Below, one piece after another: positions 26,947-44,802 of a stretch of DNA of 64,000 bases. Where the stretch lies: assembly GCF_001429395.1 (NCBI RefSeq), contig NZ_LMJT01000008.1, positions 1-64,000 of the forward strand. The letters run 5' to 3'. The stretch's first letter is position 1; each line of letters opens with the position of its first letter. Origin of the DNA: Allobosea sp. Root381. GTDB taxonomy: Bacteria > Pseudomonadota > Alphaproteobacteria > Rhizobiales > Beijerinckiaceae. A model generated the notes under the pieces. The model did not search any database. It was not told the origin of the DNA and saw nothing but the letters and a program-made list of their open reading frames with translations. The position numbers were made by a program, and so were the translations under genes.

Positions 26947-27114
26947 ATGGCCAAGGCCGTGACCATCAAGATCAAGCTGCTTTCGACCGCCGACACCGGC
27001 TTCTTCTACGTGACGAAGAAGAACTCGCGCACGATGACGGAGAAGATGTCGAAGAAGAAGTACGACCCCGTCGCGCGCAAGCACGTCGAGTTCAAGGAAA
27101 CCAAGATCAAGTGA
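26947..27114 (+). CDS. rpmG: 50S ribosomal protein L33
   Basis: The 55-residue basic protein ([20 protein letters not shown]...) is full length L33 of the cysteine-free type common in Alphaproteobacteria. Its last codons and stop lie within the 18-bp core at 27100-27117 that is repeated at 44785, so the 17.7-kb element has integrated at the 3' end of this gene while restoring its coding sequence. Confidence 0.97.
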
Positions 27115-27117
27115 GGC
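27100..27117 (+). repeat. attL core, 18-bp direct repeat at the end of rpmG
   Basis: ACCAAGATCAAGTGAGGC here is identical to 44785-44802. The copy includes the final rpmG codons and the TGA. The two copies bound the integrase-encoding element, and the integrase lies just inside the other copy. Confidence 0.9.
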
Positions 27118-27153
27118 CGATTGGCCTAAACGCTTGATTTTGCATCGAAAAGA

Positions 27154-27178
27154 ACCGCCCCTCGCAGGGCGGTTTTTT
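27154..27178 (+). terminator. rpmG terminator supplied by the element
   Basis: ACCGCCC, a six-base loop, GGGCGGT and TTTTT form an intrinsic terminator 40 bases after rpmG. It lies inside the integrated element and is nearly the same as the original host terminator, now displaced to 44838-44864. Confidence 0.9.
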
Positions 27179-27228
27179 CGTTAGGGTCACAGTGGGAACA
27201 CGAGAAAACCGCTCTGCCGGAGCCAAAA

Positions 27229-27615
27229 TCATCCGGACATTGCGCAGTGCGAAACTCTGGACCAAGCCTGTTCTTCACTGGTCAAGGCTCGCGTTCCGAC
27301 GGCGACGGTCGACCGATTTTCGCCGCTCTTTCTTACGGTCACCTCAATTTGGCGAACTGTTAACACCCCCAGCGGCCCGTTGGTCGTCACCTCCATGAAT
27401 AGGCGTATTGTCTCCGTTCCTCGAAGATCAACCATCCGGATCTGGTTCGGCCAAACCCTATCGAGTGCGTCGAAGGCGCATGCTCCGAACTTCGCATAGT
27501 CGACATCGACTTGCCGGACGAGACCAGGCGTTCCCTCTGGAACAGTCGAGCATGCCGCTAAGCCCATCACCGGCAACGCGCCGACAATCGCCTGTCGGAT
27601 AAGATTCCATTTCAT
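27229..27615 (-). CDS. Small lipoprotein of the element
   Basis: The 128-residue protein starts MKWNLIRQAIVGALPVMGLAAC, a lipoprotein signal peptide with lipobox LAAC at residues 19-22. It continues with a beta-rich domain containing two further cysteines (GACAF, SHCAMSG). The start at 27615 has GAGGATCAAGAT in front and overlaps the stop of the repressor-like gene by ATGA, so both are expressed together. A lipoprotein made with a repressor in the integrated state could act at the envelope, for example in superinfection exclusion; that is an inference from position only. Confidence 0.65.
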   Translation of the reverse strand: MKWNLIRQAIVGALPVMGLAACSTVPEGTPGLVRQVDVDYAKFGACAFDALDRVWPNQIRMVDLRGTETIRLFMEVTTNGPLGVLTVRQIEVTVRKSGENRSTVAVGTRALTSEEQAWSRVSHCAMSG

Positions 27616-27851
27616 ATCTTGATCCTCACCCCTGCCCCACCCGCGCGGCATGCTTCACCTTCGGCGATAAAATCAACGCCCACCGCTTCCAACGCGGTGC
27701 GGAGCGCCCCCAAGGTGATCTCCCGTGGCTGGCGCGCGCCGCGTTCGAAATCCACGATCGTCCGCAAACTGACTTTCGAAGCCTCCGCCAGTCGCTCACG
27801 CGACCAATCGAGCATAGCCCGGGCGGCACGGCATTGTGCTGCAGTCAGCAT
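27612..27851 (-). CDS. XRE-type helix-turn-helix repressor
   Basis: The 79-residue protein consists of one HTH domain (CRAARAMLDWSRERLAEASK, VSLRTIVDFERGARQP, ITLGALRTALEAVGVDF), the single-domain form very common in alphaproteobacterial prophages. It lacks a dimerisation or self-cleavage domain. The ATG at 27851 is chosen because homologous proteins start just before the first helix; the open frame runs further upstream. It faces a divergent set of small genes across a 95-base region with two operator-like repeats and probably controls the element. Confidence 0.8.
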   Translation of the reverse strand: MLTAAQCRAARAMLDWSRERLAEASKVSLRTIVDFERGARQPREITLGALRTALEAVGVDFIAEGEACRAGGAGVRIKI

Positions 27852-27863
27852 GGTACGGTCCCT

Positions 27864-27913
27864 AGTTGCACTTTTTATGTTGACATACATCGAGCGAAGT
27901 CGCACGTTATATG
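27864..27913. promoter_or_regulatory. Divergent control region with two operator-like repeats
   Basis: AGTTGCACTTTTTATG (27864-27879) and AGTCGCACGTTATATG (27898-27913) match at 13 of 16 positions in direct orientation, 34 bases apart. A TTGACA lies between them at 27880-27885. The position between the repressor gene and the rightward early genes suggests repressor operators. Confidence 0.5.
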
Positions 27914-27946
27914 CGTACTTAACCTTAACGGATCGAGAGGCGCAAC

Positions 27947-28144
27947 ATGACGACGAGCACCGACTCGGCGGCCGCGACCGGCTTGCCCAGGACTCGGAAG
28001 GCAGCACAGGCTGAGCTCGAGCGCCTCATGGCCGAGCGCGGCTGCGTCACACATGAGCTGCTCGGTAAGGCAGGCTACCGGCTATCTCGGCATGGGGTCT
28101 ATTTGCCACCGGCAAAGCCGCGGCTTGTGCACATTGTCGGTTGA
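27947..28144 (+). CDS. Hypothetical 65-residue protein
   Basis: First rightward gene after the divergent control region. It is preceded by GAGAGGCGCAAC. The sequence (AAQAELERLMAERGCVTHEL...) is probably helical, with no recognised domain. Its place opposite the repressor suggests an early regulatory or small accessory product. Coding potential is moderate. Confidence 0.5.
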   Translation: MTTSTDSAAATGLPRTRKAAQAELERLMAERGCVTHELLGKAGYRLSRHGVYLPPAKPRLVHIVG

Positions 28145-28151
28145 GGGACCG

Positions 28152-28450: not shown

Positions 28451-28507
28451 TCGCAGTGGGTCCTGAGGCCCGACGATAGCCCCGCAGCACCAGTACGAGA
28501 GTGGCGA

Positions 28508-28888: not shown

Positions 28889-28921
28889 GCCCACGCTCTG
28901 ACCGCCGAAGGACGGCCCGCT

Positions 28922-29188: not shown

Positions 29189-29246
29189 CCCGAACCGTAG
29201 CCGCCGGGAGCAGCTCGCTCAACCCGCTGAGGCGATAGAGCGCGTC

Positions 29247-29558: not shown

Positions 29559-29670
29559 GGCGGCTCCTCCATCGCCGCTGGTAACCACATGAGCCGGCAG
29601 GCGGTTCCTGAAGCTGCGCTGCTTGCCTGCCCTCCGCCCTCGTGCATCATGGCGCCGGGGATGGGGGCGT

Positions 29671-29889: not shown

Positions 29890-29940
29890 CGAAAAGCCGC
29901 GCCAGGCGCCGCCTCGCTGACCGCAGGAGCGAGCAATCCA

Positions 29941-30222
29941 ATGACACGCAAGGGCGAACCGCTTCTTCATCCCGATGACGCTCAGCGCCGGCCTACGCCA
30001 CGCCGCGGTCTGTCGCTCGCGGAGTCGGCCGACTACATCGGTGTGTCCGTCACCAAGTTCCTCGAGATGACCGCGGACGGCCGTATGCCGAAGCCGAAGG
30101 AGATCGACCGCCGGCGGGTCTATGACATCCGCATGCTGGACCGAGCCTTCGACGCACTGCCTGGCGGCGAGTTCGACGAGGAGGAGATCGCGATGCGGCC
30201 GCGGCGCGAGGTGATCCTGTGA
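29941..30222 (+). CDS. AlpA-like excisionase/regulator
   Basis: The 93-residue protein has an HTH (GLSLAESADYIGVSVTKFLE, then MTADGRMPKPKEIDRRRVYD) that matches small AlpA-like regulators common in alphaproteobacterial phages, where the MPKPK...RRVWD pattern is typical. It is preceded by GCAGGAGC ten bases from the ATG. It precedes the AlbA_2/ATPase pair by 25 bases and may belong to the same transcript. Confidence 0.7.
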   Translation: MTRKGEPLLHPDDAQRRPTPRRGLSLAESADYIGVSVTKFLEMTADGRMPKPKEIDRRRVYDIRMLDRAFDALPGGEFDEEEIAMRPRREVIL

Positions 30223-30246
30223 CGGGTGTCGAGCGCGAGGGGAATT

Positions 30247-31170
30247 ATGCTGAAGCTTGAGACGACAGCCGACCTTCAGGCCGTGATCGACGGCGGAATA
30301 GGCGAGAGCCTGCATCTGGACTTCAAGCGCGGCGACGCCCTGGCCAAGTCGGATGGCAAGAAGCGCGAGATGGCGAAGGATGTCTCCGCTATGGCAAACT
30401 CCGATGGCGGCCAGATCATTTATGGGATCGATGAGGACGGCGCCGGCAACGCGACGAGCTGGGCCCCGCCAGCTGACCGTTCGATAAACGCGGACTGGAT
30501 CGGCCAAGTTCTCGATCAGAACGTCAGCCCTAGGATCGAAGGACTGCGTATCAGAGAAATCCCCGCGCCTGGCAGCGGCTTGGCTTTCGTCGTCGCCGCT
30601 CCTCGAGCGATCACCCGTGCTCCGCACCAGGCTTCGGATAAGCGCTACTATCGACGCCACGAGCGCGAATCCGTGCCCATGTACGATTACGAGGTCAGGG
30701 AGGCGATGCGGCGCCTTCAAGATCCTCAGCTGTATTGCCGCTTCAGCTTAGGCATCGCGCATCCGGGGCTAATGAACAATGGCCGCGAGGGGCTTCAGAT
30801 TGCCTGTCACATCGGCAACCGGTCGTCAGTTCCAGCGCTATATGTAAGCCTCTCAATTTTCGTCGATGCGCGGCTTGCAAAGGAGCAGTTCGTCGACTGG
30901 CAAGACTTCCTGGCTAAAAAGCAGACGCTTCCTTCAGGCCAAGAGGTACACCGCTTCAAGCGAGAGTTCTGCGCGCCGCGCGACTTTCCGGTATTTCGAG
31001 AATCACGGATCGAGATCAAATCTGCCGGATTTCTTTATCCTTCTTGGATGACCCCCGACGACGAAATCATTCTGGGTTATTCATTGGCTTGCCCTGGCTT
31101 TCAGATCGAAGACTATCAAGTCGCACACCGTCAGAATGGCCGTTTCGAATTCCAAGCGGCGGTGAGCTAA
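30247..31170 (+). CDS. AlbA_2 (Schlafen-like) domain protein
   Basis: Residues 1-150 match the AlbA_2 domain: GESLHLDFKRGDAL, MAKDVSAMANSDGGQIIYGIDEDG, and the closing YYRRHERESVPMYDYEV. This is the nucleic-acid-binding or RNase-like fold shared with Schlafen proteins. The remaining ~155 residues are beta-rich and unrecognised. The ATG at 30247 is chosen because GCGAGGGGAATT precedes it; a GTG at 30226 is in frame. It is followed after 60 bases by an ATPase gene with the same initiation sequence. In mobile elements such pairs are often defence or toxin cargo; this is inference. Confidence 0.75.
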   Translation: MLKLETTADLQAVIDGGIGESLHLDFKRGDALAKSDGKKREMAKDVSAMANSDGGQIIYGIDEDGAGNATSWAPPADRSINADWIGQVLDQNVSPRIEGLRIREIPAPGSGLAFVVAAPRAITRAPHQASDKRYYRRHERESVPMYDYEVREAMRRLQDPQLYCRFSLGIAHPGLMNNGREGLQIACHIGNRSSVPALYVSLSIFVDARLAKEQFVDWQDFLAKKQTLPSGQEVHRFKREFCAPRDFPVFRESRIEIKSAGFLYPSWMTPDDEIILGYSLACPGFQIEDYQVAHRQNGRFEFQAAVS

Positions 31171-31230
31171 TTCACGAGCGCGGGGAGGTCTTACTCGCGC
31201 GAAAAAATGCAGTTGGCAACGGGGGGAATT

Positions 31231-32499
31231 ATGAACGTCGAGAAGGTCTTCACGCCAAATGATACGCCGACGATTACATATGTTGACCGAGCAGAGCATC
31301 AACTTCAGCAGACGCTTTCTGATTATTATAAGATACCGAATGTTATTGTTTCCGTTTCGGGCCCCTCAAAATCAGGAAAGACGGTTCTAATCAAGAAGGT
31401 TGTCAATGAGGAGTCGCTTATAACTATCTCAGGCTCCGGTATTGAGAGCGGCGATAACATCTGGGATCGCGTCCTGAATTGGATGGGAGCGCCGAGCGAG
31501 ACAACGAGTAGCACCACCAAGGGCTTTGAAGTCGGAGGCGAGGTCGAAGGGTCAGGTGGAATCAAGCTACCGTTTATCGCTGACTTCGAAGCGAAGGCCC
31601 AGCTTTCCGGAACTCATTCCCGCGAGAAGGAAACAGGCAAGACTTTTGGACGCTCCGGTCTGGAGCAGGTCGCGCGTGAGATTGCCGGAAGTGACTACGT
31701 TGTCTTTATCGACGATTTTCACTATATTCGCCCAGAAATTCAGGAAGAAGTTGGAAAGCAGCTAAAGTCTGCTGCGGAGAGAGGCATTAAGATATTCACG
31801 GCCTCCGTTCCACATCGATCAGATGACGTTGTTAGAAGTAACCCAGAGCTTCGTGGGCGTGTTGCAGCGCTTGATATTGGATACTGGTCTCAAAATGAAC
31901 TTGCGCTGATTTCGCGTCGAGGCTTCCACGAACTAAACATCGACCTTTCGCCTGAGATCGAGCGTACGTTCGCGACAGAGGCCGCCGGCTCTCCTCAGTT
32001 AATGCAAAGCATCTGCCTTAATCTCTGCTATTCTCTAAACATTCGATCAAAATTGGACAAGCACGAACGATTTGATGTCTCCCCGGGCGTCCAATCAGAA
32101 ACATTACGGCGAACCTCTGCATTCACAAATTTTGCAAAGATGTTAAGTGCTCTACACCAAGGAGCAAAGACTCGGGGAACAGAGAGAAAAATCCACTCTT
32201 TAATCGATGGAACAAACGGAGATGTATATAGAGCGATACTGTTAGGCCTAAAGCAAAATCCCACGGGATTGGCTTTCACATACGACAACATCCTTGATCG
32301 TGTGCGTGCGGTTTGCACTGTCGATGCTCCAGTTGGATCTAGCATCAATTCGGCACTGGAGCAGATGGCTATCATCGCAAATGAGATTCAACCGGCAGCT
32401 AGCCCACTGTCATGGCAAGAGGACGTGCTCGACATCGCCGACCCGTACCTACTTTTCTATTTGCGGTGTTCGAACAAGCTCCAGGAGCTGGGAGCATGA
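31231..32499 (+). CDS. P-loop ATPase partner of the AlbA_2 protein
   Basis: The 422-residue protein has Walker A SVSGPSKSGKTVLI near residue 45, Walker B YVVFIDDFHYI near 165 and a later sensor-like arginine region (ASVPHRSDDVVRSNPELRGR), followed by a helical C-terminal half. It resembles the ORC/STAND-like ATPases used as sensors or switches, without a recognised effector domain of its own. GGGGGGAATT precedes the ATG at 31231, the same context as the AlbA_2 gene. Its GC content is clearly lower than its surroundings, a sign of recent transfer. Confidence 0.7.
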   Translation: MNVEKVFTPNDTPTITYVDRAEHQLQQTLSDYYKIPNVIVSVSGPSKSGKTVLIKKVVNEESLITISGSGIESGDNIWDRVLNWMGAPSETTSSTTKGFEVGGEVEGSGGIKLPFIADFEAKAQLSGTHSREKETGKTFGRSGLEQVAREIAGSDYVVFIDDFHYIRPEIQEEVGKQLKSAAERGIKIFTASVPHRSDDVVRSNPELRGRVAALDIGYWSQNELALISRRGFHELNIDLSPEIERTFATEAAGSPQLMQSICLNLCYSLNIRSKLDKHERFDVSPGVQSETLRRTSAFTNFAKMLSALHQGAKTRGTERKIHSLIDGTNGDVYRAILLGLKQNPTGLAFTYDNILDRVRAVCTVDAPVGSSINSALEQMAIIANEIQPAASPLSWQEDVLDIADPYLLFYLRCSNKLQELGA

Positions 32500-32588: not shown

Positions 32589-32939
32589 TCAGTGCAGCCC
32601 CTTCGTCTTCACCCGGCGCGCTGCACGCTTCGTCTTCCGCTCCGGCGGTGACGGCTCCGCAGGGGCCGGAGCCACCGCGGCGAGCCGCATGTCGAGGGCG
32701 ATCTCCGCGACGGCCTCGGCGAAGCGCCGATTGACGTGCTCGCCATAGACGGCGAGCGCATCGGGGCCGGCGCCCTCCGACTGGAGCTGCCTCATTCTCT
32801 CCATGATGAGACGCAGCCGTTCCACTTCGAACAGCGCGACGACCACCGGCTCAGCGCCGATGCCGTTCTCCATCATCGCGCGGGCATGGCCGGCCCCCTC
32901 GAGCCGGCCGAGCGTGGCGAAATCGGCGACATCCATCAT
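32589..32939 (-). CDS. Phage distal gene product, unknown
   Basis: The 116-residue protein is alpha-helical (LIMERMRQLQSEGAGPDALA) with a basic, proline-rich C-terminus (PPERKTKRAARRVKTKG). Its start overlaps the previous stop by ATGA at 32936-32939. It is the last gene of the leftward morphogenesis operon. I do not recognise the family. Confidence 0.6.
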   Translation of the reverse strand: MMDVADFATLGRLEGAGHARAMMENGIGAEPVVVALFEVERLRLIMERMRQLQSEGAGPDALAVYGEHVNRRFAEAVAEIALDMRLAAVAPAPAEPSPPERKTKRAARRVKTKGLH

Positions 32940-33283
32940 GCGGGCCATCCCATCGCCGGCAGCTCGTCCACGATCTCCGCGACCGTGGGCTGTTCGCGCT
33001 CCCCTGCCTCGACGGCAGCAAGCTCGGTGTACGCATGTGCCCACACTGCATCGCGCCAGGCGACGAACGCGGTGGCCTCCGCAGCCCATGCCGTGTTCGT
33101 CGATCCTAGATAGGAAGCGCAGGTGACGCCGCTGTCGTAGTTGCGCTGTCGGGCGGTGGTATCGATGTGCGCCTGTATCGCGCGGCGGTAGTCGTCGACG
33201 GTCAGCGGCGGCGGCCCTGGAATCGGGCCAAGCTCTTCATCGGAAACCTCGACGATTTCATCATTCTGCCAAATCAAGGGCAT
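32936..33283 (-). CDS. Phage tail protein of the tail-fibre-assembly type
   Basis: The 115-residue protein has VDDYRRAIQAHIDTTARQRN, then YDSGVTCASYLGSTN and AFVAWRDAVWAHAYTEL. This motif series is common in small tail-region proteins (DUF4376-like) following tail fibres in many phages. The ATG overlaps the preceding stop (TGATG). It probably helps fibre assembly or attachment. Confidence 0.7.
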   Translation of the reverse strand: MPLIWQNDEIVEVSDEELGPIPGPPPLTVDDYRRAIQAHIDTTARQRNYDSGVTCASYLGSTNTAWAAEATAFVAWRDAVWAHAYTELAAVEAGEREQPTVAEIVDELPAMGWPA

Positions 33284-33969
33284 CAGCACCCCTCCACGAC
33301 AATGCGCGTACCAACGCCGTAGAGGCCGCCGACGACGCTTGGTAGCAACTGGATGTGGGTGACAGCGCCCGCGGCGGCCAGAAAAGTGCTCAGGGCCGCG
33401 GCGGTATGGTTCGCGCCATCGTAAGACGACGAGCGCATCTGCAGGAAGCCGTTCTTGACGGCGGACCCCTGTCGGAAAAAGGCCTCCACGGCGCCCCCGA
33501 CCGTTGGAAAGGCCGTGTCCATCGTCCAGCAGAAGTACCCGAACGTCGTCGTGGTCGCCGCGATCGGCGTGACGATCCCGCCCCCGTCGACGGAACCCAT
33601 GTAGAGGTAATCGCTGCCCGCCAGCCAGGTTGACCCGCCGTCCTTGCTGACGCGGAAAATAGAAGCGAAGTCGTTCCCGTTTGGCGTGATCTCCCCGTCG
33701 ATCCGGTAAAGACCGAAGCCTCCTGTAAGCGGAATGGTGATGGCGGAAACGGCAGACCCGGCTACGGTGCTATCGTAGACAGTCACCCACTTCTGCCCGG
33801 TGATGGTTCGGACGTCAGAGCCTGTGCCGTCCTCCGGATCGCCCTCCCCGGTCCCGGCCTTGCGAAGCTTGACCGTGCCCGCCGCCATATTGGTTAGCTT
33901 GTCGTTGGTGATGGCGTCGCCGGCGACCGTCCAGGTCGTGCTGCTCCAGTCGTACTCGATTCTAAACAT
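33283..33969 (-). CDS. Probable tail fibre or receptor-binding protein
   Basis: The 228-residue protein is rich in beta-strand, glycine and threonine (ITIPLTGGFGLYRIDGEITP, FRVSKDGGSTWLAGSDYLYM) and lacks cysteines except near the C-terminus. Its position after the tape measure gene and before the fibre-assembly-like gene supports a tail tip or fibre role. No specific family is recognised. Confidence 0.55.
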   Translation of the reverse strand: MFRIEYDWSSTTWTVAGDAITNDKLTNMAAGTVKLRKAGTGEGDPEDGTGSDVRTITGQKWVTVYDSTVAGSAVSAITIPLTGGFGLYRIDGEITPNGNDFASIFRVSKDGGSTWLAGSDYLYMGSVDGGGIVTPIAATTTTFGYFCWTMDTAFPTVGGAVEAFFRQGSAVKNGFLQMRSSSYDGANHTAAALSTFLAAAGAVTHIQLLPSVVGGLYGVGTRIVVEGC

Positions 33970-33984
33970 GTCGTTCGCGCTCCC

Positions 33985-34668
33985 TTATGCGAATATTTCG
34001 GGGGAAGGAGAAACAAATTGGCCAACCTGGTCTGGCCATCTTCTGAGTATTTTTGTCGTTATACCGTCCGATGTGACTGTCGTTGCCTGAATAAAACCTG
34101 CGATGCCTGTGACTTCCACTCCCGAGGGCGTAAACCCGCGCAGTTGTCGCTGGCATTCGGCAATAGCGATGCCGAGTTCTTCGATTGAATTGGTCGGGTG
34201 TGCGGCAAGGCGCTGCCTAAAGCGTCCGTCACGTGGCAAAACCATGTCGCCCACCTGCTGCAAGGCCCAGGCGGGTGCCTCCACCCCGTGAACGGCAAGC
34301 TGCAGGTTGCGGGATGATATGCCGTAACTTTCGGGCCGCGCCCGTGCGGACGACCAGCCGCAGATCCAGAGCTCGAATTCCCCGGCATCGGCCGCGGCGA
34401 TTGCTTCGGCGTGGCGTTCGTATTGACTGACGAATAGCGCACGCACCCCCGCGATCATTTCGTCGAAGGTTGAAAAGTGATGGCTGATTGCGGTGACGAT
34501 CTTTTGCATGAACCAGTAGGACCCACGGGAGGAAAACACGGCGCCCAGGTGCGGGACGGGGTGCGCTTTATGCAGAAGCGCCGTGACTGAGCCGTCTGCC
34601 GCAAACAGACCGGCGTCGGTGAACATGTGCACGGCATTCGACCCGTGGACGATATTGACGACTGACAT
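33985..34668 (-). CDS. Phage protein with possible Ntn-hydrolase-like fold
   Basis: The 227-residue protein opens with VVNIVHGSNAVHMFTDAGLF and VPHLGAVFSSRGSYWFMQKI. I associate this beginning with phage proteins of proteasome/Ntn-hydrolase-like fold, although no classical N-terminal nucleophile is visible. It directly follows the tape measure gene (two-base gap), where distal tail proteins are expected. Assignment is weak. Confidence 0.45.
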   Translation of the reverse strand: MSVVNIVHGSNAVHMFTDAGLFAADGSVTALLHKAHPVPHLGAVFSSRGSYWFMQKIVTAISHHFSTFDEMIAGVRALFVSQYERHAEAIAAADAGEFELWICGWSSARARPESYGISSRNLQLAVHGVEAPAWALQQVGDMVLPRDGRFRQRLAAHPTNSIEELGIAIAECQRQLRGFTPSGVEVTGIAGFIQATTVTSDGITTKILRRWPDQVGQFVSPSPEIFA

Positions 34669-34670
34669 GA

Positions 34671-37600: not shown

Positions 37601-37925
37601 GCTGCGTCGCGGCATCCATGAGCTGCATGCGACGCGTCTCGGTGACGAGCCCTTGATCATAAGCGCGCTGCAGATCACGCTCGACCCGACCGATCTTCTC
37701 CTGCGCACGGTACTGATCGTCCAAGCTGCGCTGCACGCGATTGTAGGCGGCCTGAGCCGACAGCTGCCGACGCTCCAGCCGCTCGGTGGAGGTCGCGGCG
37801 GAATCACTGCCCCGAGCAACAGCCGAATAGGCGTCCTCGACGGTCTTCATTTTGGCTGTGAGCTGATCCAGCCCCTCGGCGACGCCCTTAACCCGGACGA
37901 CGCGGACGACTTCGTTTCCGGACAT
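34671..37925 (-). CDS. Tail tape measure protein with embedded M15 peptidase domain
   Basis: At 1084 residues this is by far the longest gene in the element. The N-terminal half shows coiled-coil segments and the tape-measure pattern (NFGRQMQDVATMAAMGQSPF, LSSQGAQVADIF). Around residues 645-742 lies a D-Ala-D-Ala carboxypeptidase-like M15 domain (GLTITSGFRTYEQQARLYA, SQHERGLAADL, EPWHAEP) with the zinc ligands His, Asp and His all present. The C-terminus has the typical GGFTGAGGRNTPAGIVHRGE region. The start at 37925 overlaps the previous stop (TAATG). The peptidase would cut cell-wall peptides during DNA entry. The implied tail length is roughly 150 nm, at about 1.5 Å per residue, if all residues span it. 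Confidence 0.9.
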   Translation of the reverse strand: MSGNEVVRVVRVKGVAEGLDQLTAKMKTVEDAYSAVARGSDSAATSTERLERRQLSAQAAYNRVQRSLDDQYRAQEKIGRVERDLQRAYDQGLVTETRRMQLMDAATQRYSANSAAATTYATTVGKTAVTANDNLTRSTGLARHEMINFGRQMQDVATMAAMGQSPFAILSSQGAQVADIFMSTSGTMRGFFAQMASGAARFALSGAGVATAGAGLGAWGVTAAAGYASGQRDVEQALRGVGAASGITLAQINRLADAQAGAARVSVASAREIAAAYAGTGRIDPGRLPGLLDFTKQYGAFSGLGTGEAATELANAFADPAKGAELLAEKLGGLNSAAQRWIREQQAAGNMLGAQVTLLESFRQQVEGSTDRVGLFARAWDGVKRSVSDADDALGRFLAGSATAEQQLAALQAQRDRFAALPTRTGRAQQHLAGLDAEIAKLGAVVELERQRAEIDARVARAANASRRGSAISDRMDTYGTALRELTADRSRLEEAMRLNPRAGDYDAWARSLDRVNGAMATMLPNAERERQTHELTIRAINARTLAERTAIEVQRETLRLSGEKISAAEREIAIQRRVAEIQAQANRDAQDALRTSRDQLALAGRSPAERSRLEIEQRYRDNVERFGGVNPAMPAATAAANGLDAAFAESLRKLREAVPGLTITSGFRTYEQQARLYAEKPHLAAPPGRSQHERGLAADLAYNGSGQLPAWVRAEAAKFGINFPIANRARNPEPWHAEPVGGRGRSGAGGGSAADEIRRNEYASRDLNAIEGVVGSANRELQRQFELLGLQRQAWGESVEEIAKAAKQQELINALQREGVAIGPGLQAQIDRTAAGYGALVRQQEELRASQEALRSIGDLGRDIGRGLYSDLRAGASGAELLTNALDKVASKLMDMAMNDLFGKAFGNNAMGLFGNGGFFSSLMGAFGGGGGSATDFSRGAGGLYGPGFASGGFTGAGGRNTPAGIVHRGEYVFSAASVNRIGLGNLDSMHRGSLPGYAGGGYVSPTPYAHQPAANANAAAPKMVVNVTNNTPAQVETHQKEDGSLEVIIDAIEGRMAQKMVRGQGSMSTAMRAVSTGRQLRG

Positions 37926-38266
37926 TATGCGGCTCCGATCAACATAAGGTCTTTGGCGAGGCGCCTGCACGTCCCCGCGGCACGATCGACGGCGGCGGCA
38001 AGCGCGATCCGGTCCTTCAGGAAGAAGACGCTATCGGCCTGCTCTTCCCGCTCGACGCGTTGGAGCTCTGCGAGCCGGGACCGGGCCGCGAGGTAGTCGA
38101 CAACGATGTCGCTCTCGATCGCTGCAACTGGCCTCCCAGCAGCCCGGCGAAGTTCGCAAACGCGCCTAAACGCGCTCTTTTCCGACCTCGACAGACCACG
38201 AGGCGGAGCTGGGTCGCGGTCCGCTGCCGATGAATCCTCCGATATCTGCGGCATTCTCGGCATCAC
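37925..38266 (-). CDS. Hypothetical phage protein before the tape measure gene
   Basis: This helical protein has 113 residues (GLSRSEKSAFRRVCELRRAA, YLAARSRLAELQRVEREEQ, VDRAAGTCRRLAKDLMLIG). The end resembles the tail of P27-type small terminases, but the match is weak and the position, next to the tape measure gene, would also suit a tail-assembly chaperone or connector protein. Confidence 0.5.
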   Translation of the reverse strand: MMPRMPQISEDSSAADRDPAPPRGLSRSEKSAFRRVCELRRAAGRPVAAIESDIVVDYLAARSRLAELQRVEREEQADSVFFLKDRIALAAAVDRAAGTCRRLAKDLMLIGAA

Positions 38267-38391: not shown

Positions 38392-38700
38392 CTAATGCGG
38401 TGGACTTTCCTTCGACCCGTTTCTGGACGTCGATGCCCCCCCGTCACCCGGCCGCCGCTCGCCTCGTCCCGGCTCTGCCTTGAACCAAGGAGCGGCCGGC
38501 TGCCCCATGAAGGCGCGTACGCTGAGGATGGCTTCGACACGCCAATGCTGGGCCATTGCGCTGACCCTGCGCCGGGCTTCGTTGACGACGTGACCCGGCA
38601 GGCCCGGCGACAGCATCTCGTCGAGCAGGTCAGCGGCGTAGCGGTCGACCGCGGCAACAACCATGGCTTCGGCCTCAGCGATGGGCGTGGTGATTTGCAT
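38392..38700 (-). CDS. Hypothetical 102-residue phage protein
   Basis: Helical N-terminal half (EAEAMVVAAVDRYAADLLDE, VVNEARRRVSAMAQHW) and a disordered glycine/arginine-rich end. It starts three bases after the preceding stop and lies in the capsid-to-tail segment of the operon. A gap of 125 bases separates it from the next gene, with nothing recognised in it. Confidence 0.55.
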   Translation of the reverse strand: MQITTPIAEAEAMVVAAVDRYAADLLDEMLSPGLPGHVVNEARRRVSAMAQHWRVEAILSVRAFMGQPAAPWFKAEPGRGERRPGDGGASTSRNGSKESPPH

Positions 38701-38703
38701 GGA

Positions 38704-38901
38704 TCAACCTCCTTCGACGGCGAGCCGCAGGACGCAGGCGGGGGCGGCGTCGCGCCAGCGCTTCAACTCCGCGCGGGTCTTAGCCATGGCGGCGGCGCGC
38801 TCCGTCTTGCTGGCGCCGGCTATGTCGAGCTGACGGGATTTGCGGCGCAGCGCTTCCTGGACCATCGCATCGAGCTTGGTCTCCATTGCCTCGATGGTCA
38901 T
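38704..38901 (-). CDS. Hypothetical 65-residue helical protein
   Basis: A small, mostly helical product (MTIEAMETKLDAMVQEALRR) whose ATG overlaps the stop of the upstream gene by ATGA (38898-38901). No family recognised; translational coupling supports it as real. Confidence 0.6.
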   Translation of the reverse strand: MTIEAMETKLDAMVQEALRRKSRQLDIAGASKTERAAAMAKTRAELKRWRDAAPACVLRLAVEGG

Positions 38902-39671
38902 GGTCGAGCGTCCTTCCCATCCTTGCCGCGCTTGATCGCGAGCTGCCACGCGGTGGGCGTGCCCGGCGCCTCGCCTTCCTTCGCCTCGCGAAGGGCGATC
39001 CAACCGGAGCCTTCGAAGGTGACGAGCGCGCCCTTCCGATAAGTGACGCCGGACCGCTGCCAGACGCCGCAGTATAAGATCCCACCGGCCTCGAGCTCGG
39101 CCACCCTGGCGCTGAGGGCGTCGAGCTTCCTGCCGCTCGGCGTGGTGTCGCGCTTCGCCAACGCCATCTCGAGATCAGCGCAGCGCTGTTCCAACGCATT
39201 GATGCGGTCGACGGCCCAAGCGGTGCGGACATGGTCGATCGCCGATAGCTCGACCAGCATCTCGGTGGCGGCCCCGGCTTTGCGGAGCATTCCCAGCCAC
39301 GCGCTGATCTTGGCCGTTGTCGAGCGGAAGAGCTTGCTGCGTTGCTCCTTCGGCAGAGCGGAGGGATAGTCGGGGACGTCCGGGAAGTCTCCCTCTGGCA
39401 AGGGCGCTTGCTTGACGGCTCGCGCGGCCGGCTCTGGCACGGCTTCCGCCGGTTTCGGCTTGCCGAAGTCCTCCGGAAGGCCGGCGGTCAGGTTGGCCTG
39501 ACGGGCCTCCAAGTCGTGAACCTGGCGCCAGAGCTCTTTCGCGGCCCGGTCGTGGGAGTTCGCCAAGGTGAGGTTGAGGCCCGCCGCATAGGCCGCCGCG
39601 TCGCTCTTCCGGGCGCGTGTCCGGAGGTCCGTAACTTGGTCGCGGATTTCGATGAGGCGGGCAGCTGTCAT
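38898..39671 (-). CDS. Coiled-coil protein with C-terminal CBM5/12-like module
   Basis: The first ~210 residues are helical with a proline-rich linker. The C-terminal 50 residues (YCGVWQRSGVTYRKGALVTF, GSGWIALREAKEGEAPG) match the carbohydrate-binding CBM5/12-like module often found at the ends of phage virion proteins. It starts at 39671 with an ATGA overlap to the capsid gene, so it may be a scaffold, decoration or adhesion protein of the particle. Confidence 0.65.
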   Translation of the reverse strand: MTAARLIEIRDQVTDLRTRARKSDAAAYAAGLNLTLANSHDRAAKELWRQVHDLEARQANLTAGLPEDFGKPKPAEAVPEPAARAVKQAPLPEGDFPDVPDYPSALPKEQRSKLFRSTTAKISAWLGMLRKAGAATEMLVELSAIDHVRTAWAVDRINALEQRCADLEMALAKRDTTPSGRKLDALSARVAELEAGGILYCGVWQRSGVTYRKGALVTFEGSGWIALREAKEGEAPGTPTAWQLAIKRGKDGKDARP

Positions 39672-40723
39672 GACGCAGCGCCTCCCCAGTTGACGCCCGA
39701 CAAGATCGCGACCGCGTTCGAGCGATAGCGCTCCAGCCCGAATGTCATGGTGGCAAGGATGCCGGTGCTGTTGGTCTGCCAAAGACTGACGAGCTCGGCA
39801 GCGACGTTCTCGGGATCGTCCCGCATCGCGACCGCGGCCTGCCCCGACGAACGGATGGTGATGTTCTCGATCTCTCCGACGAGCCCGCCGGCGTCGATCA
39901 ACATCACCGTGCCGGGCGCGACGGCGTCAGAAACGAGCGCGGGCAGTCCGAGGATTTCGCCGCCTCGAGGGGTCATCTCGGGGAACGCCAGGGCGCCGGC
40001 GAGACTCGTCATCGTGGCGGCGGCATTCGCGACACCGGGGGGCATCGCCCAGTAGAGCGCAGGGCTTGCGCCGGTGACGTTGACCACGTCGAGCAGAGTG
40101 CGCAGATCGACGAGCGCGGCCTCGGCGTCCGTGCCGGTCGCGGCGATCGGCGAGACCCCAGATCCAGCGATGCTGATGAACTGGCCGTCAGCCGCTGCGG
40201 CGGCGCCCTTGCGCAACTCGCCCTCGATCAGCATCAGCGCCGCTGGCGAGGTTCCGACGATAGCCTCCTGGCTGAGTACGACGAGCGCCATAGCCTTTTG
40301 CGGAGCTAGCGATCGTGATGCCAGCGTGATCCTGCTGACTGGGGTCGGCGCGCCCTCCGAAACGATGGTGCCGGTGATGTTGGCTGTGACTGCTCGGATC
40401 GGCCTGCGGAGCGGGGCTCGCGCCATGCCATTGTCGAGGAGATGCGCGAAGATGGATCGGGATCGCAGCGACGCGAGAAACGTCGCCGAGACCTGAGCAT
40501 AGGGGCCGAGGTCCTCGATCGTGGTCGCACCGACAGCGGCCTTAATCATCGAGACGAGAGCCGGCGAGGCGCCGAGGCCTTCAGCGATCGCGCTGGCAGA
40601 ACCACCGCCCGCCGCCGTCTTCGCGGTGACCATGGCGAACATCGCGAGGTCGGAGATTCCGCGGGTCTGCTGAGCCTCTCGGTCGCGGACCATGCGGCTC
40701 GTCAGGTCAGACAGTCGTTGCAA
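39668..40723 (-). CDS. HK97-like major capsid protein
   Basis: The 351-residue product has the HK97-fold pattern. It starts with a helical N-arm (SASAIAEGLGASPALVSMIK), followed by VSEGAPTPVSRITLASRSLA, then KAMALVVLSQEAI, and near the end GEILGLPALVSDAVAPGTVM and the final sheet LWQTNSTGILATMTFGLERY. I place the start at TTG 40723 because GGAGG stands nine bases before it; the frame is open to 40777. No prohead protease gene lies upstream, where HK97-type phages usually have one together with the portal. Confidence 0.75.
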   Translation of the reverse strand: MQRLSDLTSRMVRDREAQQTRGISDLAMFAMVTAKTAAGGGSASAIAEGLGASPALVSMIKAAVGATTIEDLGPYAQVSATFLASLRSRSIFAHLLDNGMARAPLRRPIRAVTANITGTIVSEGAPTPVSRITLASRSLAPQKAMALVVLSQEAIVGTSPAALMLIEGELRKGAAAAADGQFISIAGSGVSPIAATGTDAEAALVDLRTLLDVVNVTGASPALYWAMPPGVANAAATMTSLAGALAFPEMTPRGGEILGLPALVSDAVAPGTVMLIDAGGLVGEIENITIRSSGQAAVAMRDDPENVAAELVSLWQTNSTGILATMTFGLERYRSNAVAILSGVNWGGAAS

Positions 40724-40798: not shown

Positions 40799-41152
40799 TC
40801 AAACCAGCAGTTTTTCGACCTTCCAGACACGCCCGGTGCGCTCTTCCGACATGGATTCTACGCGGTATCCGGCGATCGGAGCGGCGGCCAGCTTGGCGAG
40901 TTTCTTTCCCAAACCTCGGGCGCTGACACGTCCGCAGGCGCCTTCGATCGCGCCCAAGAGGGCCGGCTCGGCTTGCTCTCCGTGTCGAATCAGCTCGCGG
41001 ACGGTGAACGGCAAGCCATTGGTGTGCTCGCCGATCGCGCTGACGAGGCGATGCGCCGGCGGCACGGCGAAACCTGCCTGATCAAGCCGATCCAGCCGAG
41101 CGTTCACGGCGCGCAGTTCGGCCAGGATGAGCAGCGCGACATCATCGCCCAT
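40799..41152 (-). CDS. Hypothetical 117-residue protein
   Basis: A helical start (DVALLILAELRAVNARLDRL) is followed by a winged-helix-like region (FTVRELIRHGEQAEPALLGA) and a basic strand end. It could be a DNA-binding protein. It overlaps the preceding gene by 11 bases and lies just upstream of the capsid gene, where a small terminase or regulator might be expected; no proof. Confidence 0.55.
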   Translation of the reverse strand: MGDDVALLILAELRAVNARLDRLDQAGFAVPPAHRLVSAIGEHTNGLPFTVRELIRHGEQAEPALLGAIEGACGRVSARGLGKKLAKLAAAPIAGYRVESMSEERTGRVWKVEKLLV

Positions 41153-41396
41153 CACGGCCTCCGACCTGCTCGAACACAGCCGGCGCACCAAGCGACGCGA
41201 TCAGCATGGCCGTGCGGAACTCGGTGAGCTCGGCGACAAAGGCGGCCGTGGTCACGCTGGCGCAGGCCTCTCGCGTGCGGCCGGCGATCACCCACGCGAA
41301 CGGTCCAGGCAGCGGATAGGGCTTGCACCAGAGCACAGCCGTGCTGCCTTCGGTGGTGCGGACGAGGTGCCAACCAGGTTCGAAGGCGGCGCTCAT
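41142..41396 (-). CDS. Hypothetical 84-residue protein
   Basis: The product (FEPGWHLVRTTEGSTAVLWC, then TREACASVTTAAFVAELTEF) shows strand-then-helix structure and two cysteines. The start overlaps the previous stop by ATGA. No family recognised; tight packing supports coding. Confidence 0.55.
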   Translation of the reverse strand: MSAAFEPGWHLVRTTEGSTAVLWCKPYPLPGPFAWVIAGRTREACASVTTAAFVAELTEFRTAMLIASLGAPAVFEQVGGRDGR

Positions 41397-41635
41397 CGGC
41401 GAGCTACCTCGAGCGGCCCGCCGGTGTAGCTGCCGGGGCTGGCCGGGTGGATCGCCGGGAAGCGCAGGATCGGCGCGGGCGGGATCCGCCTCTCCATTCG
41501 AGCAACGGCTATGTCGTAGTGGCGGAGCGGATGCAGTCGCTCATACCGTGGCAGCGTCTCGCGACGTGCTCGGAAATCGACAACCGTCTGAGGTCGATCC
41601 GCCCAGGCGAAAAGGTCGGTGGGAATGTCGTTCAT
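41393..41635 (-). CDS. Hypothetical 80-residue protein
   Basis: The product (MNDIPTDLFAWADRPQTVVD, RYERLHPLRHYDIAVARMER) is short and basic. It overlaps both neighbours by ATGA, at 41632-41635 and 41393-41396. No domain is recognised. Confidence 0.55.
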   Translation of the reverse strand: MNDIPTDLFAWADRPQTVVDFRARRETLPRYERLHPLRHYDIAVARMERRIPPAPILRFPAIHPASPGSYTGGPLEVARR

Positions 41636-42429
41636 GCCGACGCCCTCCGCTCGATCGCGGCGAGCGCCAACCTGCGAGCGTTGTCGATCTCGGCACCGAT
41701 CGACGACGCGCCGAATTTCGATGAACGATCCAGCAGCATCGTCAGCAGCGCCGCCGGCACATTGTCCGCCAGACAACGCCCCTCTTCAATGTCGCCAGCG
41801 CCAAGCCGAGACAGGAAGTTTCGAGGGATCACCACACCATCAGGATCGACGTCATCCCCCTGGAGATATCTGGATTCCTCGGCAGCCCTATATGAGGGTG
41901 TTTCTGTTGAGGGTGTAATGAAGGTGTACGGGGCCACCTGCATGGCCGACTGTCGGCTATCCACATGGCCGACTACTCCGTCACCCACATGGCCGACTAC
42001 ATCGTCCGGCAGTCGGCTATCTGTATGGCCGACTACAGCCTTCCGAGCGCGCCACGCCAAGGTGGTTCGGCGTCTCTTCTGGATGCGTTCGGCGCGAAGG
42101 TCCTCTAGCCCGTTCATCAGCGCCATACCCGCGCTGAGGTCGATGGTGTATTCCGTCGCTCGGTTGCCGGATCCGGGCTCAATCTTCCAGTACCCGAGCT
42201 GCTGAAGATGGCGCCTGTTCGCCTTGCAGGTCGAGCGGCCGCCGCAGCTCTTAACCTCCGCCATGATCGTCTCGTCACCGATGACGGCAACGCCAGTCCG
42301 TTCGTTCATCGCCCGCAGAACTCGGACGAACATCCTGAACTGGCCATCCGTGACACGACGATCGGCGCATATGCGGTGCTGGAGATCGAGCTTCCGGGAG
42401 GTGAACGACTTCGAGGGCGTGTCTTTCAC
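41632..42429 (-). CDS. Replication-initiator-like HTH protein
   Basis: The N-terminal 100 residues form a winged-helix domain like phage and plasmid replication proteins (RRVTDGQFRMFVRVLRAMNE, DETIMAEVKSCGGRST, HLQQLGYWKIEPGSGN). The middle contains a repeated VVGH(T/V) peptide encoded by iteron-like DNA repeats (41941-42033), and the C-terminal third is helical. A replication gene with an origin inside its own coding sequence is the arrangement of lambda O. Starts at 42429 and overlaps the gene above by ATGA. Confidence 0.65.
   Translation of the reverse strand: MKDTPSKSFTSRKLDLQHRICADRRVTDGQFRMFVRVLRAMNERTGVAVIGDETIMAEVKSCGGRSTCKANRRHLQQLGYWKIEPGSGNRATEYTIDLSAGMALMNGLEDLRAERIQKRRRTTLAWRARKAVVGHTDSRLPDDVVGHVGDGVVGHVDSRQSAMQVAPYTFITPSTETPSYRAAEESRYLQGDDVDPDGVVIPRNFLSRLGAGDIEEGRCLADNVPAALLTMLLDRSSKFGASSIGAEIDNARRLALAAIERRASA
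41941..42033. repeat. Iteron-like repeats inside the replication-like gene, possible origin
   Basis: ATGGCCGACT occurs four times in direct orientation, at 41941, 41964, 41988 and 42024. Two inverted near-copies, GTCGGCTAT, lie at 41951 and 42011. Next to the cluster (41885-41935) is a less GC-rich stretch with TGAGGGTGT twice. Such an arrangement is typical of initiator-binding iterons beside an unwinding element. Confidence 0.6.
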
Positions 42430-42650
42430 AGTGCGCCCTCCAGCGAGGACAGCCGGCGGCCGATCAGCGCGACAAGCAGCTCGACCTCGGCAGGCTCGCG
42501 CTCCTGCAAAGCAGCCTGCTCGCGGATGGTGTCCGGCCGCGGCTGCAGTCCCAGGGCGCGGATTGTGCCGATCGTCGCGTCGACGTTCGCCAGCGTGTCG
42601 TGGTCAGCGAGGAGCCCGTCGAGCTCTGCGGGGGAGAATGAGGAGGCCAT
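42426..42650 (-). CDS. Hypothetical 74-residue helical protein
   Basis: The product (FSPAELDGLLADHDTLANVD, IREQAALQEREPAEVELLVA) is short, acidic and helical. It ends with a four-base overlap into the replication-like gene, which suggests a helper or regulator of replication. No family recognised. Confidence 0.55.
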   Translation of the reverse strand: MASSFSPAELDGLLADHDTLANVDATIGTIRALGLQPRPDTIREQAALQEREPAEVELLVALIGRRLSSLEGAL

Positions 42651-42662
42651 GCGCGTGCCACC

Positions 42663-42851
42663 TCACGCTGCCGTAGCCTGGCGCGACGAGAGCCACGCCT
42701 CGACCTCTGACTGCTTCCAACCCGTGGCGTGGTCGGTGATCTTCACCGAGGCAGGGAACTTCCCAGCGCGGATGAGGCGCCAGACGGTGGTTCGGCTTAG
42801 GCCGGTCGCGCTGTGCACGTCCGGCCAGCGGAGGATCTTGTCATTGAGCAT
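42663..42851 (-). CDS. AlpA-family transcriptional regulator
   Basis: This 62-residue protein is a classic AlpA: ILRWPDVHSATGLSRTTVWR, LIRAGKFPASVKI and GWKQSEVEAWLSSRQ. AlpA proteins of P4-like satellites and prophages activate integrase or excision genes. AGGAG nine bases before ATG 42851 decides the start; the frame is open to 42881. It lies between the replication-like gene and the integrase. Confidence 0.88.
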   Translation of the reverse strand: MLNDKILRWPDVHSATGLSRTTVWRLIRAGKFPASVKITDHATGWKQSEVEAWLSSRQATAA

Positions 42852-42908
42852 TTCGGGCCGCTCCTGTGTTTCGAACGGCAACAGAAATGTGCAGAGATTT
42901 TCACCGTG

Positions 42909-43412
42909 TCATTCGACTTCTGAGGGGGCCCCAAAGGTCAACTTTTCGGCTTCCGCGGTAATAAATGCCTCATGGGCATCAAGAACCTGCTTCTTAGCGG
43001 CGCCGAAATTGCTTGCCTCGATAGCGAATTCCCAAGCGAAAAATGCGTAAGTTGGATCAGGCTTATGCCCACGCCCAATCCGACGGGCAGCGCTCTTACC
43101 AAGGGCAAGCCTCTGCTCACGATCGGACGGCCGAGTGCGAGACCACCGGCCATCCTCGCCGACAATGTCGCTGCTCGCTATAAACGCGAGGAAATCGAGA
43201 GGTACGTCACTACCCAGAATGCCGGAGAGAACTCTAAGTTCGGCAGCGAAAGCAGAGAACCGGACTGGATGGGCGAGCTGCTTTCGCTTTTGGTCGGCAC
43301 GCCGCCGATCGAGCATCCAGTGGTTTTTCGCCAGCTGTTCAGCTCGCCACTCGTTCCACATTGCTTCGTAATAGCGAGACGTCCCAGCCTTGGGAGGCTT
43401 ACGCGTTTCCAT
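42909..43412 (-). CDS. Hypothetical 167-residue protein next to the integrase
   Basis: A basic N-terminal half (NHWMLDRRRADQKRKQLAHP) and an alpha-helical second half (YAFFAWEFAIEASNFGAAKK). It starts two bases after the integrase stop, so it is co-expressed with it. I do not recognise the family. Confidence 0.6.
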   Translation of the reverse strand: METRKPPKAGTSRYYEAMWNEWRAEQLAKNHWMLDRRRADQKRKQLAHPVRFSAFAAELRVLSGILGSDVPLDFLAFIASSDIVGEDGRWSRTRPSDREQRLALGKSAARRIGRGHKPDPTYAFFAWEFAIEASNFGAAKKQVLDAHEAFITAEAEKLTFGAPSEVE

Positions 43413-43414
43413 CG

Positions 43415-44620
43415 TCAGCGCCCCCGCAGCGCGACGACATTATCAGGTACCGGCCGCTCGGTTAGCACCGCAGCTATGCACTGATCCAGCGCCTCCAGCG
43501 CCCGCTTCTTCTGCGGCAGGAAGTCGTGTCGATCATAGGTGCTGCCTGTGACCGTGGCCTTGATGGTCGAGCCGTGGTTGAGGACATAGGCGATCGTCAG
43601 CCGATCTATCTCCAATCGCGACATGATCGTCGCCGCGGTCCTGCGGAGGTCGTGCGGCGTCGCGGGCCCCTTCAGCACGCTCCGGGTGCGCTCAAATGCC
43701 TTTGCGAGATCCTGGCTGGTCGGTGCATTTCCCTTCGTGGTGGAGAATATGTGCCCTGACCGCTTGCCCTCGCAAAGACGCGAGACGATCGCCAAGGCCT
43801 CGCCGACGAGCGGCAGAACATGAGCCGCTTTCGTCTTCACCCGCTCCGCTGGAATACGCCACAGTGCTTTGTCGAGGTCGATTTCCTCCCGCGACATCCC
43901 TGCGACCTCTCCCGGCCGCGCGCCCAGCAAGAGCACTAAGCGAACGAGATCCGCATAGCGCGGCGCCGTCTCGTTAAGGCCGGCCCACAGCGCGCGAATC
44001 TCCTCGTCGTCGAGATGGCGCTCCTTGGCTTTCTCAGTGCCCCGCTTCTTCAGACCTCGGACCGGATTGTCCTTCGCGAGCCCTTCCGACACCGCCCAGG
44101 AGAAGACCGAGCTCATCACCGACATGACTCGGTTTGCAACAATCGGAGCACGTTTCGCGACGTCGTCGAGCAGCACCCCGACTTCTGGGCGCGTGATCTC
44201 GTCCACACGTCGGTCGCGGAGTGTCGGGAGCACGTCCTTATCTAGAAGCTGCTGATACTCGCGGGCGGATCGGATCTTCGTCCCGTGGTTGGACATATAT
44301 CGCTCCACGAGCTTCTCGAAGGTCAGGGCGTCGCGCCGCACCTTAGCCTCGAGCACAGGGTCGCCGCCGTCCTGCACTCGCCGGCGAAGCGCCAGTGCCT
44401 TATCGCGGGCGTCCGCCAACGCCCACGCCGGATAGTCGCCGATCGTGTATCGCTTCTGCCGCGTCTCACCTTTCGGCCGATAGATGAAGCTCCACGACTT
44501 TGTGGTGGGGCTCACCCGCAGGCATAACCCTCGGGCCTTCGCGTCATAGATCACGAGGCGCTGACCGGGCCCTGCCTTGAGCCCGCGAACCTCGACGTCG
44601 GTAAGTGAGCGTCCAGCCAA
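43415..44620 (-). CDS. int: P4-type tyrosine integrase
   Basis: The 401-residue integrase has the DUF4102-type arm-binding N-terminus (SLTDVEVRGLKAGPGQRLVI), a SAM-like core-binding domain, and the catalytic domain. The active-site residues are arginine in LGARPGEVAGMS, HDLRRT and the tyrosine in STYDRHD. It lies 165 bases inside attR and is transcribed into the element, the normal layout for self-mobilising islands and satellites. It should recombine the 18-bp rpmG core. Confidence 0.95.
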   Translation of the reverse strand: MAGRSLTDVEVRGLKAGPGQRLVIYDAKARGLCLRVSPTTKSWSFIYRPKGETRQKRYTIGDYPAWALADARDKALALRRRVQDGGDPVLEAKVRRDALTFEKLVERYMSNHGTKIRSAREYQQLLDKDVLPTLRDRRVDEITRPEVGVLLDDVAKRAPIVANRVMSVMSSVFSWAVSEGLAKDNPVRGLKKRGTEKAKERHLDDEEIRALWAGLNETAPRYADLVRLVLLLGARPGEVAGMSREEIDLDKALWRIPAERVKTKAAHVLPLVGEALAIVSRLCEGKRSGHIFSTTKGNAPTSQDLAKAFERTRSVLKGPATPHDLRRTAATIMSRLEIDRLTIAYVLNHGSTIKATVTGSTYDRHDFLPQKKRALEALDQCIAAVLTERPVPDNVVALRGR

Positions 44621-44784
44621 GTTTGAACTCCGATCACCCTCGCCGGATCACCTCCGGGTCACAGAGAATCGGTACTGCATGAAACGATATGGCGCAATAT
44701 GGAACACAAATTTCTCTGTGTTCGCAGCGCCTTGAGTTGTTCAATTCGTTTCTAGCGTTTTCAGGCTTTTGCGCCGGGAAAGTT

Positions 44785-44802
44785 ACCAAGATCAAGTGAG
44801 GC
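44785..44802 (+). repeat. attR core, 18-bp direct repeat
   Basis: ACCAAGATCAAGTGAGGC repeats the rpmG 3' end found at 27100-27117. Sequence beyond it leads into the original terminator of rpmG at 44838, showing that this side is the old chromosomal downstream region. Confidence 0.9.

Follow-up and report, generated by a model that had tools for sequence, protein, structure and literature searches.

A probable phage satellite with its own capsid and tape measure genes at the rpmG locus of a Bosea genome

An integrated element of 17.7 kb lies next to rpmG in the genome of Bosea sp. Root381 (listed under Allobosea by NCBI), a soil bacterium of the order Hyphomicrobiales, within the 64-kb window that comprises the whole analyzed stretch (positions 1 to 64,000 of contig NZ_LMJT01000008.1). 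Comparison of its genes with those of related elements indicates that it is probably a satellite akin to the phage-inducible chromosomal islands (PICIs), one that would supply a small terminase and a capsid protein of its own and borrow the portal and large terminase of a helper phage. A preliminary description of the same DNA had suggested such a borrowing of packaging by an element that makes its own particle parts, and this suggestion is now supported by 13 elements in which no portal or large terminase was detected, by the capsid tree and by purifying selection on homologous genes. The features on which that description rested were likewise recovered, namely the perfect 18-bp repeats at rpmG that bound the element (27100-27117 and 44785-44802), the integrase, AlpA, HK97-like capsid and tape measure genes, which were recognized with Pfam and PHROGs, and the coupling of leftward genes by overlapping starts and stops (42429/42426, 41635/41632, 41396/41393, 39671/39668 and 38901/38898).

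Related Capsid Genes and Their Phylogeny

The capsid protein of the window (Phage_capsid 4.5e-14) carries no protease domain and is related to the capsids of phages in which protease and capsid are fused. Searches for its relatives gave matches in nine of 298 genomes of the family, five of 67 Bosea genomes and 15 of 377 genomes of the order (genomes and their elements are cited by number below). The order-wide search led to 17 places, comprising nine short frames of 352-437 aa (the window, G485, G320 twice, G514, G502, G301, G623 and G017, whose match contains one TGA), six long ones of 607-714 aa (G351, G607, G619, G394, G436, which contains one TGA, and G537, which lies at a contig edge) and two fragments, G617 and G537:C77, which were excluded. 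Together with G266, G1085, G170 and G935, the short-frame elements number 13, 12 of them besides the window. Peptidase_S78 (PF04586) precedes the capsid in nine of nine long-frame open reading frames (ORFs; G225, G237, G295, G070, G077, G133, G233, G619 and G351); the absence of a protease was checked by domain for the window capsid and judged by length for the other satellite capsids. Of four phage records, three have the gene next to those for large terminase and portal: in PAJU2 and SP-016 the protein is annotated as fused or as protease, and in RHph_X2_26 the capsid is encoded by one ORF of 656 aa. The fourth, SOVA965, has a protease and two capsid ORFs annotated apart. The contrast between protease-fused phage capsids and short-frame satellite capsids may help to mark further satellites by sequence.

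In a tree of the 13 satellite and 14 phage capsids, the satellite or phage label changed three times, compared with 9.3 times in shuffles, and none of 500 shuffles was as low. The capsids of the window, G266, G320b, G514 and G502 constitute a clade with support 100/99 that spans four host families, those of G301, G017 and G623 make up another group, and G935 and G017 sit on long branches. This pattern suggests that capsids were captured more than once, with one lineage common to satellites of several host families. As to whether close relatives are full-length prophages from which the window copy lost genes, which the preliminary description had raised, the closest capsid relative found, G266, is likewise devoid of detected packaging genes.

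The satellites of G266 and G1085, from two Bosea species, share the same chromosomal neighbors (PIMT-like and TolC-like by eye) and differ in the end at which the integrase gene lies. A 9.9-kb member of the family in G170 (C5, about 169921-179830) lies inside the protease-capsid gene of a prophage that carries terminases, portal and tail genes; it is flanked by the 11-bp repeat GGCCGGAGGAA, brings capsid, g8 and integrase genes of its own, and is an alphaproteobacterial helper-embedded satellite.

Packaging Genes

Portal and large terminase were sought with two Pfam families, PF04860 and PF03354 respectively. The genome-wide search produced no match to either on the window's contig, in line with the absence claimed in the preliminary description, and so the pair of genes by which a complete temperate tailed phage is recognized was not found in the element. 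Elsewhere in the host genome there is no PF03354 match and a single PF04860 portal, on another contig (G000:C1:178380-179369), which possibly belongs to a gene transfer agent. Prohead protease, connector and tail tube were not detected in the element by Pfam, PHROGs and NCBIfam family scans, the sole search made for them. Genes of more than 300 aa are those for the integrase, tape measure, capsid, AAA ATPase and AlbA_2 protein, and the largest gene left without an assignment has at most 265 aa, which to our knowledge is too short for a portal. The remaining ORFs named in the preliminary description are thus too small to hold a portal and a large terminase. It had proposed fold analysis of its unknown ORFs, and this was carried out for g13, which proved similar to small terminases (see below); for the others the argument is one of size.

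The same check extended over 16 genomes (12 satellite genomes and four controls). Neither gene was found in any of the 13 short-frame elements, G514 being uninformative on its 4.7-kb contig, and both lie within about 3 kb of the capsid gene at four of four fused-capsid loci (G351, G607, G619 and G225). In G170 a portal and a large terminase are nearby, but they belong to the host prophage outside the element. It is highly improbable that the window element is instead a complete small phage, so strongly diverged that its portal and large terminase escape recognition: several ORFs do lack a family match, but no unassigned gene, at 265 aa or less, is long enough to encode a large terminase, and the related elements also lack both genes in profile searches. 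Nor does a lone decayed prophage suit these data, since 12 further elements have related short-frame capsids and none yielded a match to either gene.

A Candidate Small Terminase and Evidence of Selection

The g13 product is probably a small terminase, as judged from its predicted structure and a profile match; the preliminary description had recognized no terminase, which holds for the large subunit and probably not for the small one. The AlphaFold2 model, built on an alignment of four sequences, has a mean pLDDT of 85.9, and the small subunit of a terminase is its top Foldseek match in BFVD (prob 1.00, TMq 0.77, E 0.021), while in the PDB the HK97 small terminase chains 8pop and 6z6e show the highest query TM-scores (0.66-0.69) among the best 50 of 423 matches. 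Additionally, among 2276 ORFs from 11 prophage loci, a profile of four g13 proteins gave a single match below 0.01 (8.9e-4), which is the ORF directly 5' of the large terminase in the G301 prophage. Homologs occur in three of the 13 other elements scanned, namely G935, the Methylobacterium bullatum element and that of the same-genus relative G266 (60%). A search of 397 genomes of the order returned three matches including the window's own; the other two, weak matches in G397 and G454, overlie unrelated chromosomal genes and were rejected as spurious. A search of a collection of genome contigs returned two loci. No weight was placed on a 99-aa ORF 5' of the large terminase of G351, which tblastn tied to the M. 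bullatum g13 and the g13 profile did not recover. When viral contigs were scanned for g13, the capsid and g15, no relative could be confirmed.

A sister element is present in two strains of M. bullatum. In a plasmid record of this species it is bounded by 47-bp repeats at a distance of 17.7 kb, of which the right one falls within a tRNA-Gly gene, and it comprises genes for a primase-polymerase and a D5-type helicase, g13, a capsid module and g15. The ratios of nonsynonymous to synonymous substitution rates (dN/dS) for the pair are 0.13 and 0.04 for the replication genes, 0.07 for g13, 0.04 for g15 and 0.10 for the tip gene, and they indicate that the g13 and g15 homologs are under purifying selection; the ratios pertain to these relatives rather than to the window element, and the capsid itself is not among the genes covered. 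The interval between g13 and g15 (L029 8438-11271, 2.8 kb; L025 20473-22663, 2.2 kb) shows no blastn match between the strains, one of which has an S78 protease and a capsid there and the other a different capsid, both of PF05065. Since these intervals differ and their flanks are conserved, the capsid looks like an exchangeable module.

Plasmid p3META1 of Methylorubrum extorquens AM1 has a tape measure gene that a transposon has divided, and it also encodes a g15 homolog, an AlbA_2-like protein and ParA; no capsid was found in it by tblastn, and the plasmid appears to be related to these satellites.

The Tape Measure Gene

The window tape measure protein matches PF06791 (TMP_2, 2.7e-32) and PHROG_24 (1.7e-50), and its closest counterpart is that of the Bosea prophage G1069, with 46% identity over 1052 columns. 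Capsid and tape measure genes stand together in three other elements, G485, G301 and, partially, G514. The G485 protein has 771 aa (PHROG_10574, 9.6e-145) and a PHROG_5 connector-like gene alongside, the G301 protein has 611 aa (PF20155), and the N-terminus alone is present at the contig end in G514 (PHROG_8462). Because the best-matching families differ among elements, tape measures were seemingly captured more than once. A separate origin for each of them is not claimed, as the window and G485 proteins share partial homology (35% over 280 aa; jackhmmer 2.5e-121). We also considered and dropped a rule by which satellite tape measures would be shorter: the satellite lengths of 1084, 771 and 611 aa overlap the prophage range, which itself extends from 633 to 1194 aa (633 in G607, assigned by eye, 666 in G351, 1023-1103 in G170, G052, G485 and G1069, and 1194 in G619).

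These data bear on whether the element is a compact, defective prophage in which deletions removed portal, terminase, connectors and tail tube and left the other genes intact. In favor of such an origin, the tape measure, capsid and g10 module are all derived from phages, and a helper was not found in the host genome. We nevertheless regard it as quite improbable, given that the same absence recurs across 13 elements, that in the tree the satellite capsids group together and are not dispersed among those of phages, that the capsid and the tape measure are closest to different types of prophage, that the g13 and g15 homologs in M. bullatum are under purifying selection, and that the integrase-AlpA-rep organization matches that of satellites.

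Gene Organization and Cargo

The features of the element are collected in Table 1. The attL repeat overlaps the rpmG stop codon, and a terminator-like stretch with 84% identity over 38 bp lies 3' of both repeats. Sequence on the rpmG side was matched in 65 of 67 Bosea genomes in an empty-site comparison; a match across the junction is hardly informative here because the left end inside the element bears a similar terminator, and at the G202 locus, compared in detail, the joined empty-site query scored just marginally above the left end alone. The leftward genes run in the order integrase, g2, AlpA, g4, rep, g6, g7, g8, capsid, g10-g13, tape measure and g15-g18, and the rightward cargo includes the AlbA_2 protein and the AAA ATPase. 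Further long ORFs at 36126-37280 and 29647-30720 are each antisense to called genes.

Table 1. Features of the integrated element, in window coordinates
Feature	Position	Strand	Remarks
Whole integrated element	27100..44802		17.7 kb, ends set by perfect 18-bp direct repeats
attL	27100..27117	+	18-bp direct repeat at rpmG 3' end (rpmG 26947-27114)
Helix-turn-helix (HTH) regulator-like ORF	27612..28007	-	relatives in G485, G301 and p3META1
AlpA/HTH-like small protein (by eye)	29941..30222	+	cargo operon; no PADLOC match
Schlafen AlbA_2-domain protein	30226..31170	+	cargo; PF04326 5.7e-12
AAA ATPase	31207..32499	+	PADLOC candidate defense protein PDC-S59, E 8e-35
g18	32589..32939	-	weak PHROG_32761 0.021
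g17	32936..33283	-	
g16	33283..33969	-	228 aa; no family match
g15	33985..34668	-	227 aa; predicted Ntn-hydrolase (proteasome) fold, S2-D18-K34; adjoins tape measure
Tail tape measure protein	34671..37925	-	1084 aa, intact; VanY-like domain
g13	37925..38254	-	probable small terminase (P27/HK97 type)
g12	38392..38700	-	102 aa; homolog in G320a element
g11	38704..38901	-	65 aa; conserved 3' of capsid in G266 and G1085
g10	38898..39671	-	coiled coil and C-terminal module
HK97-fold major capsid protein	39668..40693	-	341 aa; possible upstream starts 40723, 40777
g8	40799..41152	-	117 aa; directly 5' of capsid gene
g7	41142..41396	-	84 aa
g6	41393..41635	-	80 aa; no family match
rep, replication-initiator-like	41632..42429	-	265 aa; role suggested by position and iterons
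Four iterons ATGGCCGACT	41942..42034	+	inside rep; spacing 23, 24, 36
g4	42426..42650	-	74 aa; no Pfam/PHROGs match
AlpA-type excisionase/regulator	42663..42851	-	Phage_AlpA PF05930 8.2e-15
g2	42909..43412	-	167 aa; no Pfam/PHROGs match
Tyrosine integrase, P4-type	43415..44620	-	401 aa; PF13356/PF00589/PF22022
attR	44785..44802	+	identical 18-bp repeat

The integrase (PF00589 4.5e-18, PHROG_1 1.4e-61) has relatives in 11 of the 13 other elements, a set that includes M. bullatum, and AlpA in eight of the 13. The rep product gave no match in Pfam or PHROGs and none to RepA_N, and it has a homolog in the G320b element (jackhmmer 1.8e-43). The 64-kb window contains four copies of the iteron, against 0.19 expected, and all four fall inside rep, where the cluster looks like a replication origin; among five other elements, the replication-like gene had no such cluster in four and a two-copy repeat in one. 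Homologs of g8 hold the same position in G170, G1085 and G485 (four elements with the window). The C-terminal module of g10 is common to the protein adjoining the portal in related prophages, short relatives of g10 occur in five other elements, and a coil of this type is found 3' of the capsid in six elements including the window. A g11 gene lies near the capsid in the window, in G266, twice in G1085 and, weakly, in G170.

For g15-g18 (32589-34668), which the preliminary description had read as tail-tip genes, that reading found no family support, with nothing below 0.01 in PHROGs or Pfam and, for g15 and g16, nothing in NCBIfam either. By eye, g16 is a possible receptor-binding or fiber protein. 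The g15 product models as a proteasome-fold protein of the N-terminal nucleophile (Ntn) hydrolase type: its AlphaFold2 model, of low pLDDT (68), aligns with subunits of the 20S proteasome (E 9e-8, TM about 0.55). The proteasome active site comprises Thr1, Asp17 and Lys33, and the spacing in g15 is identical once Met is removed. Homologs were found in M. bullatum, G485 and p3META1, and in an alignment of five sequences S/T2 and D18 are conserved in all five and K34 in four, G485 having K at 36. Phage-borne proteasome homologs, PPH and AAH, have been described (PMC8665760).

The AlbA_2 protein and the PDC-S59 ATPase (30226-32499) make up a candidate two-gene defense cassette on the element. The presence of PDC-S59 in the cargo, together with the inhibition of tail assembly as a known strategy of satellites and prophages (according to PMC11364771), could also be accommodated by a defense or interference island whose capsid and tape measure act as decoys that poison the assembly of an invader and form no particle of their own. 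An island of this kind would have no need of an integrase, a small-terminase-like gene and a replication gene with iterons, and the exchange of the capsid with g13 kept in M. bullatum fits particle formation better; we consider it improbable.

Proposed Mechanism and Its Weighing

Under the satellite interpretation, the arrival or induction of a helper phage would lead the element to excise and replicate, and the g13 small terminase would direct the helper's large terminase onto satellite DNA. The satellite capsid protein would build the shell, or co-assemble with the helper capsid, in a size fitting a genome of ~17.7 kb, and assembly would use the helper portal and protease much as with Ccm in SaPIbov5. 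The tape measure may enter a helper-derived tail and set its length or its partner in DNA injection, and the AlbA_2/ATPase pair would be defense cargo. Within this mechanism, least confidence attaches to what the tape measure and g15 would do. A further, tentative possibility, which we hold to be rather doubtful, is that the satellite lineage re-tailors both ends of the virion, with capsid and small terminase for the head and tape measure and g15 for the tail; if so, tail length or injection specificity, and hence the host range of transfer, would be set by the satellite rather than the helper.

Several observations weigh against the satellite interpretation and its parts. No resident helper was identified, since the host genome has no PF03354 match and its single PF04860 portal is on another contig. 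The structural E-values for g13 are weak (0.021 at best in BFVD and at least 0.74 for the HK97 small terminases), none is significant in the PDB, and unrelated helical proteins outrank the HK97 small terminase there by E-value; the protein also has no match in Pfam, PHROGs or NCBIfam and is rare, being found in two of 385 genomes of the class including the window's own. The satellite capsids are not one clade, requiring at least three changes, and G1085 falls among phages, and the contrast between fused and unfused capsids is not absolute because SOVA965 has protease and capsid separate. Finally, the G1069 prophage, from which the closest tape measure comes, has another capsid type and carries terminases, portal and tail genes.

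Comparison with Known Satellites

Satellites with capsid genes are known from enterobacteria and staphylococci. The nearest likeness is with the PICIs of Gram-negative bacteria (GN-PICIs) and their helper-embedded form (HE-PICIs), which by the account in PMC10111431 have the same pairing of integrase and AlpA, a replication gene and a late zone with phage genes in 10-20 kb. The window element has integrase and AlpA at one end of its 17.7 kb, with integration, replication-like and late zones in this order; no Bro zone was recognized, as g2, g4, g6 and g7 gave no Pfam match. Its host in the Hyphomicrobiales, the lack of a recognizable Bro zone, the probable small terminase and the full tape measure set it apart. 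According to the same source, 21 of 29 reference GN-PICIs have a capsid gene, reported there as dispensable, and the HE-PICI 11capE sits in the helper capsid gene and carries its own capsid, the same configuration as in the G170 element.

In SaPIbov5, Ccm is likewise encoded by the satellite, is homologous to a helper capsid protein of HK97 type and functions together with the remaining helper components (PMC8569155). For Ccm that report describes a cleaved delta domain and, by cryo-EM, a place in the pentamers of the shell; the phages related to the window capsid carry a protease-capsid fusion. The putative Escherichia coli satellites targeted by an Odn-like nuclease (PMC10448857) share the unusual combination of capsid and tape measure without protease or head-tail adapters. 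As far as they are described there, they lack AlpA and terminase genes, use RepA_N initiators and live in another host class; the window element stands outside this group, with AlpA present, a small terminase probable and no RepA_N match. The capsid-forming PICIs (cf-PICIs) also bring their own capsid protein in a PICI-like element. By the accounts in PMC10690885 and PMC11389934, their genes further include those for a portal, a protease, connectors and the two subunits of the terminase; of this set a probable small terminase was the one member found in the window element, which falls outside the group.

Within the part of the literature covered, which leaves the marine and soil families of PMC11389934 outside the comparison, no alphaproteobacterial capsid-bearing satellite was found. 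The present elements indicate that the capsid-bearing solution spans several families of the Hyphomicrobiales, and the recurrent tape measure beside the capsid raises the question of whether satellites control tail assembly or DNA injection besides head size. The pieces of the proposed mechanism are known singly, as terminase redirection, as Ccm and as tape measure with capsid (PMC10448857), and measured against these published accounts their combination in alphaproteobacterial elements is new.

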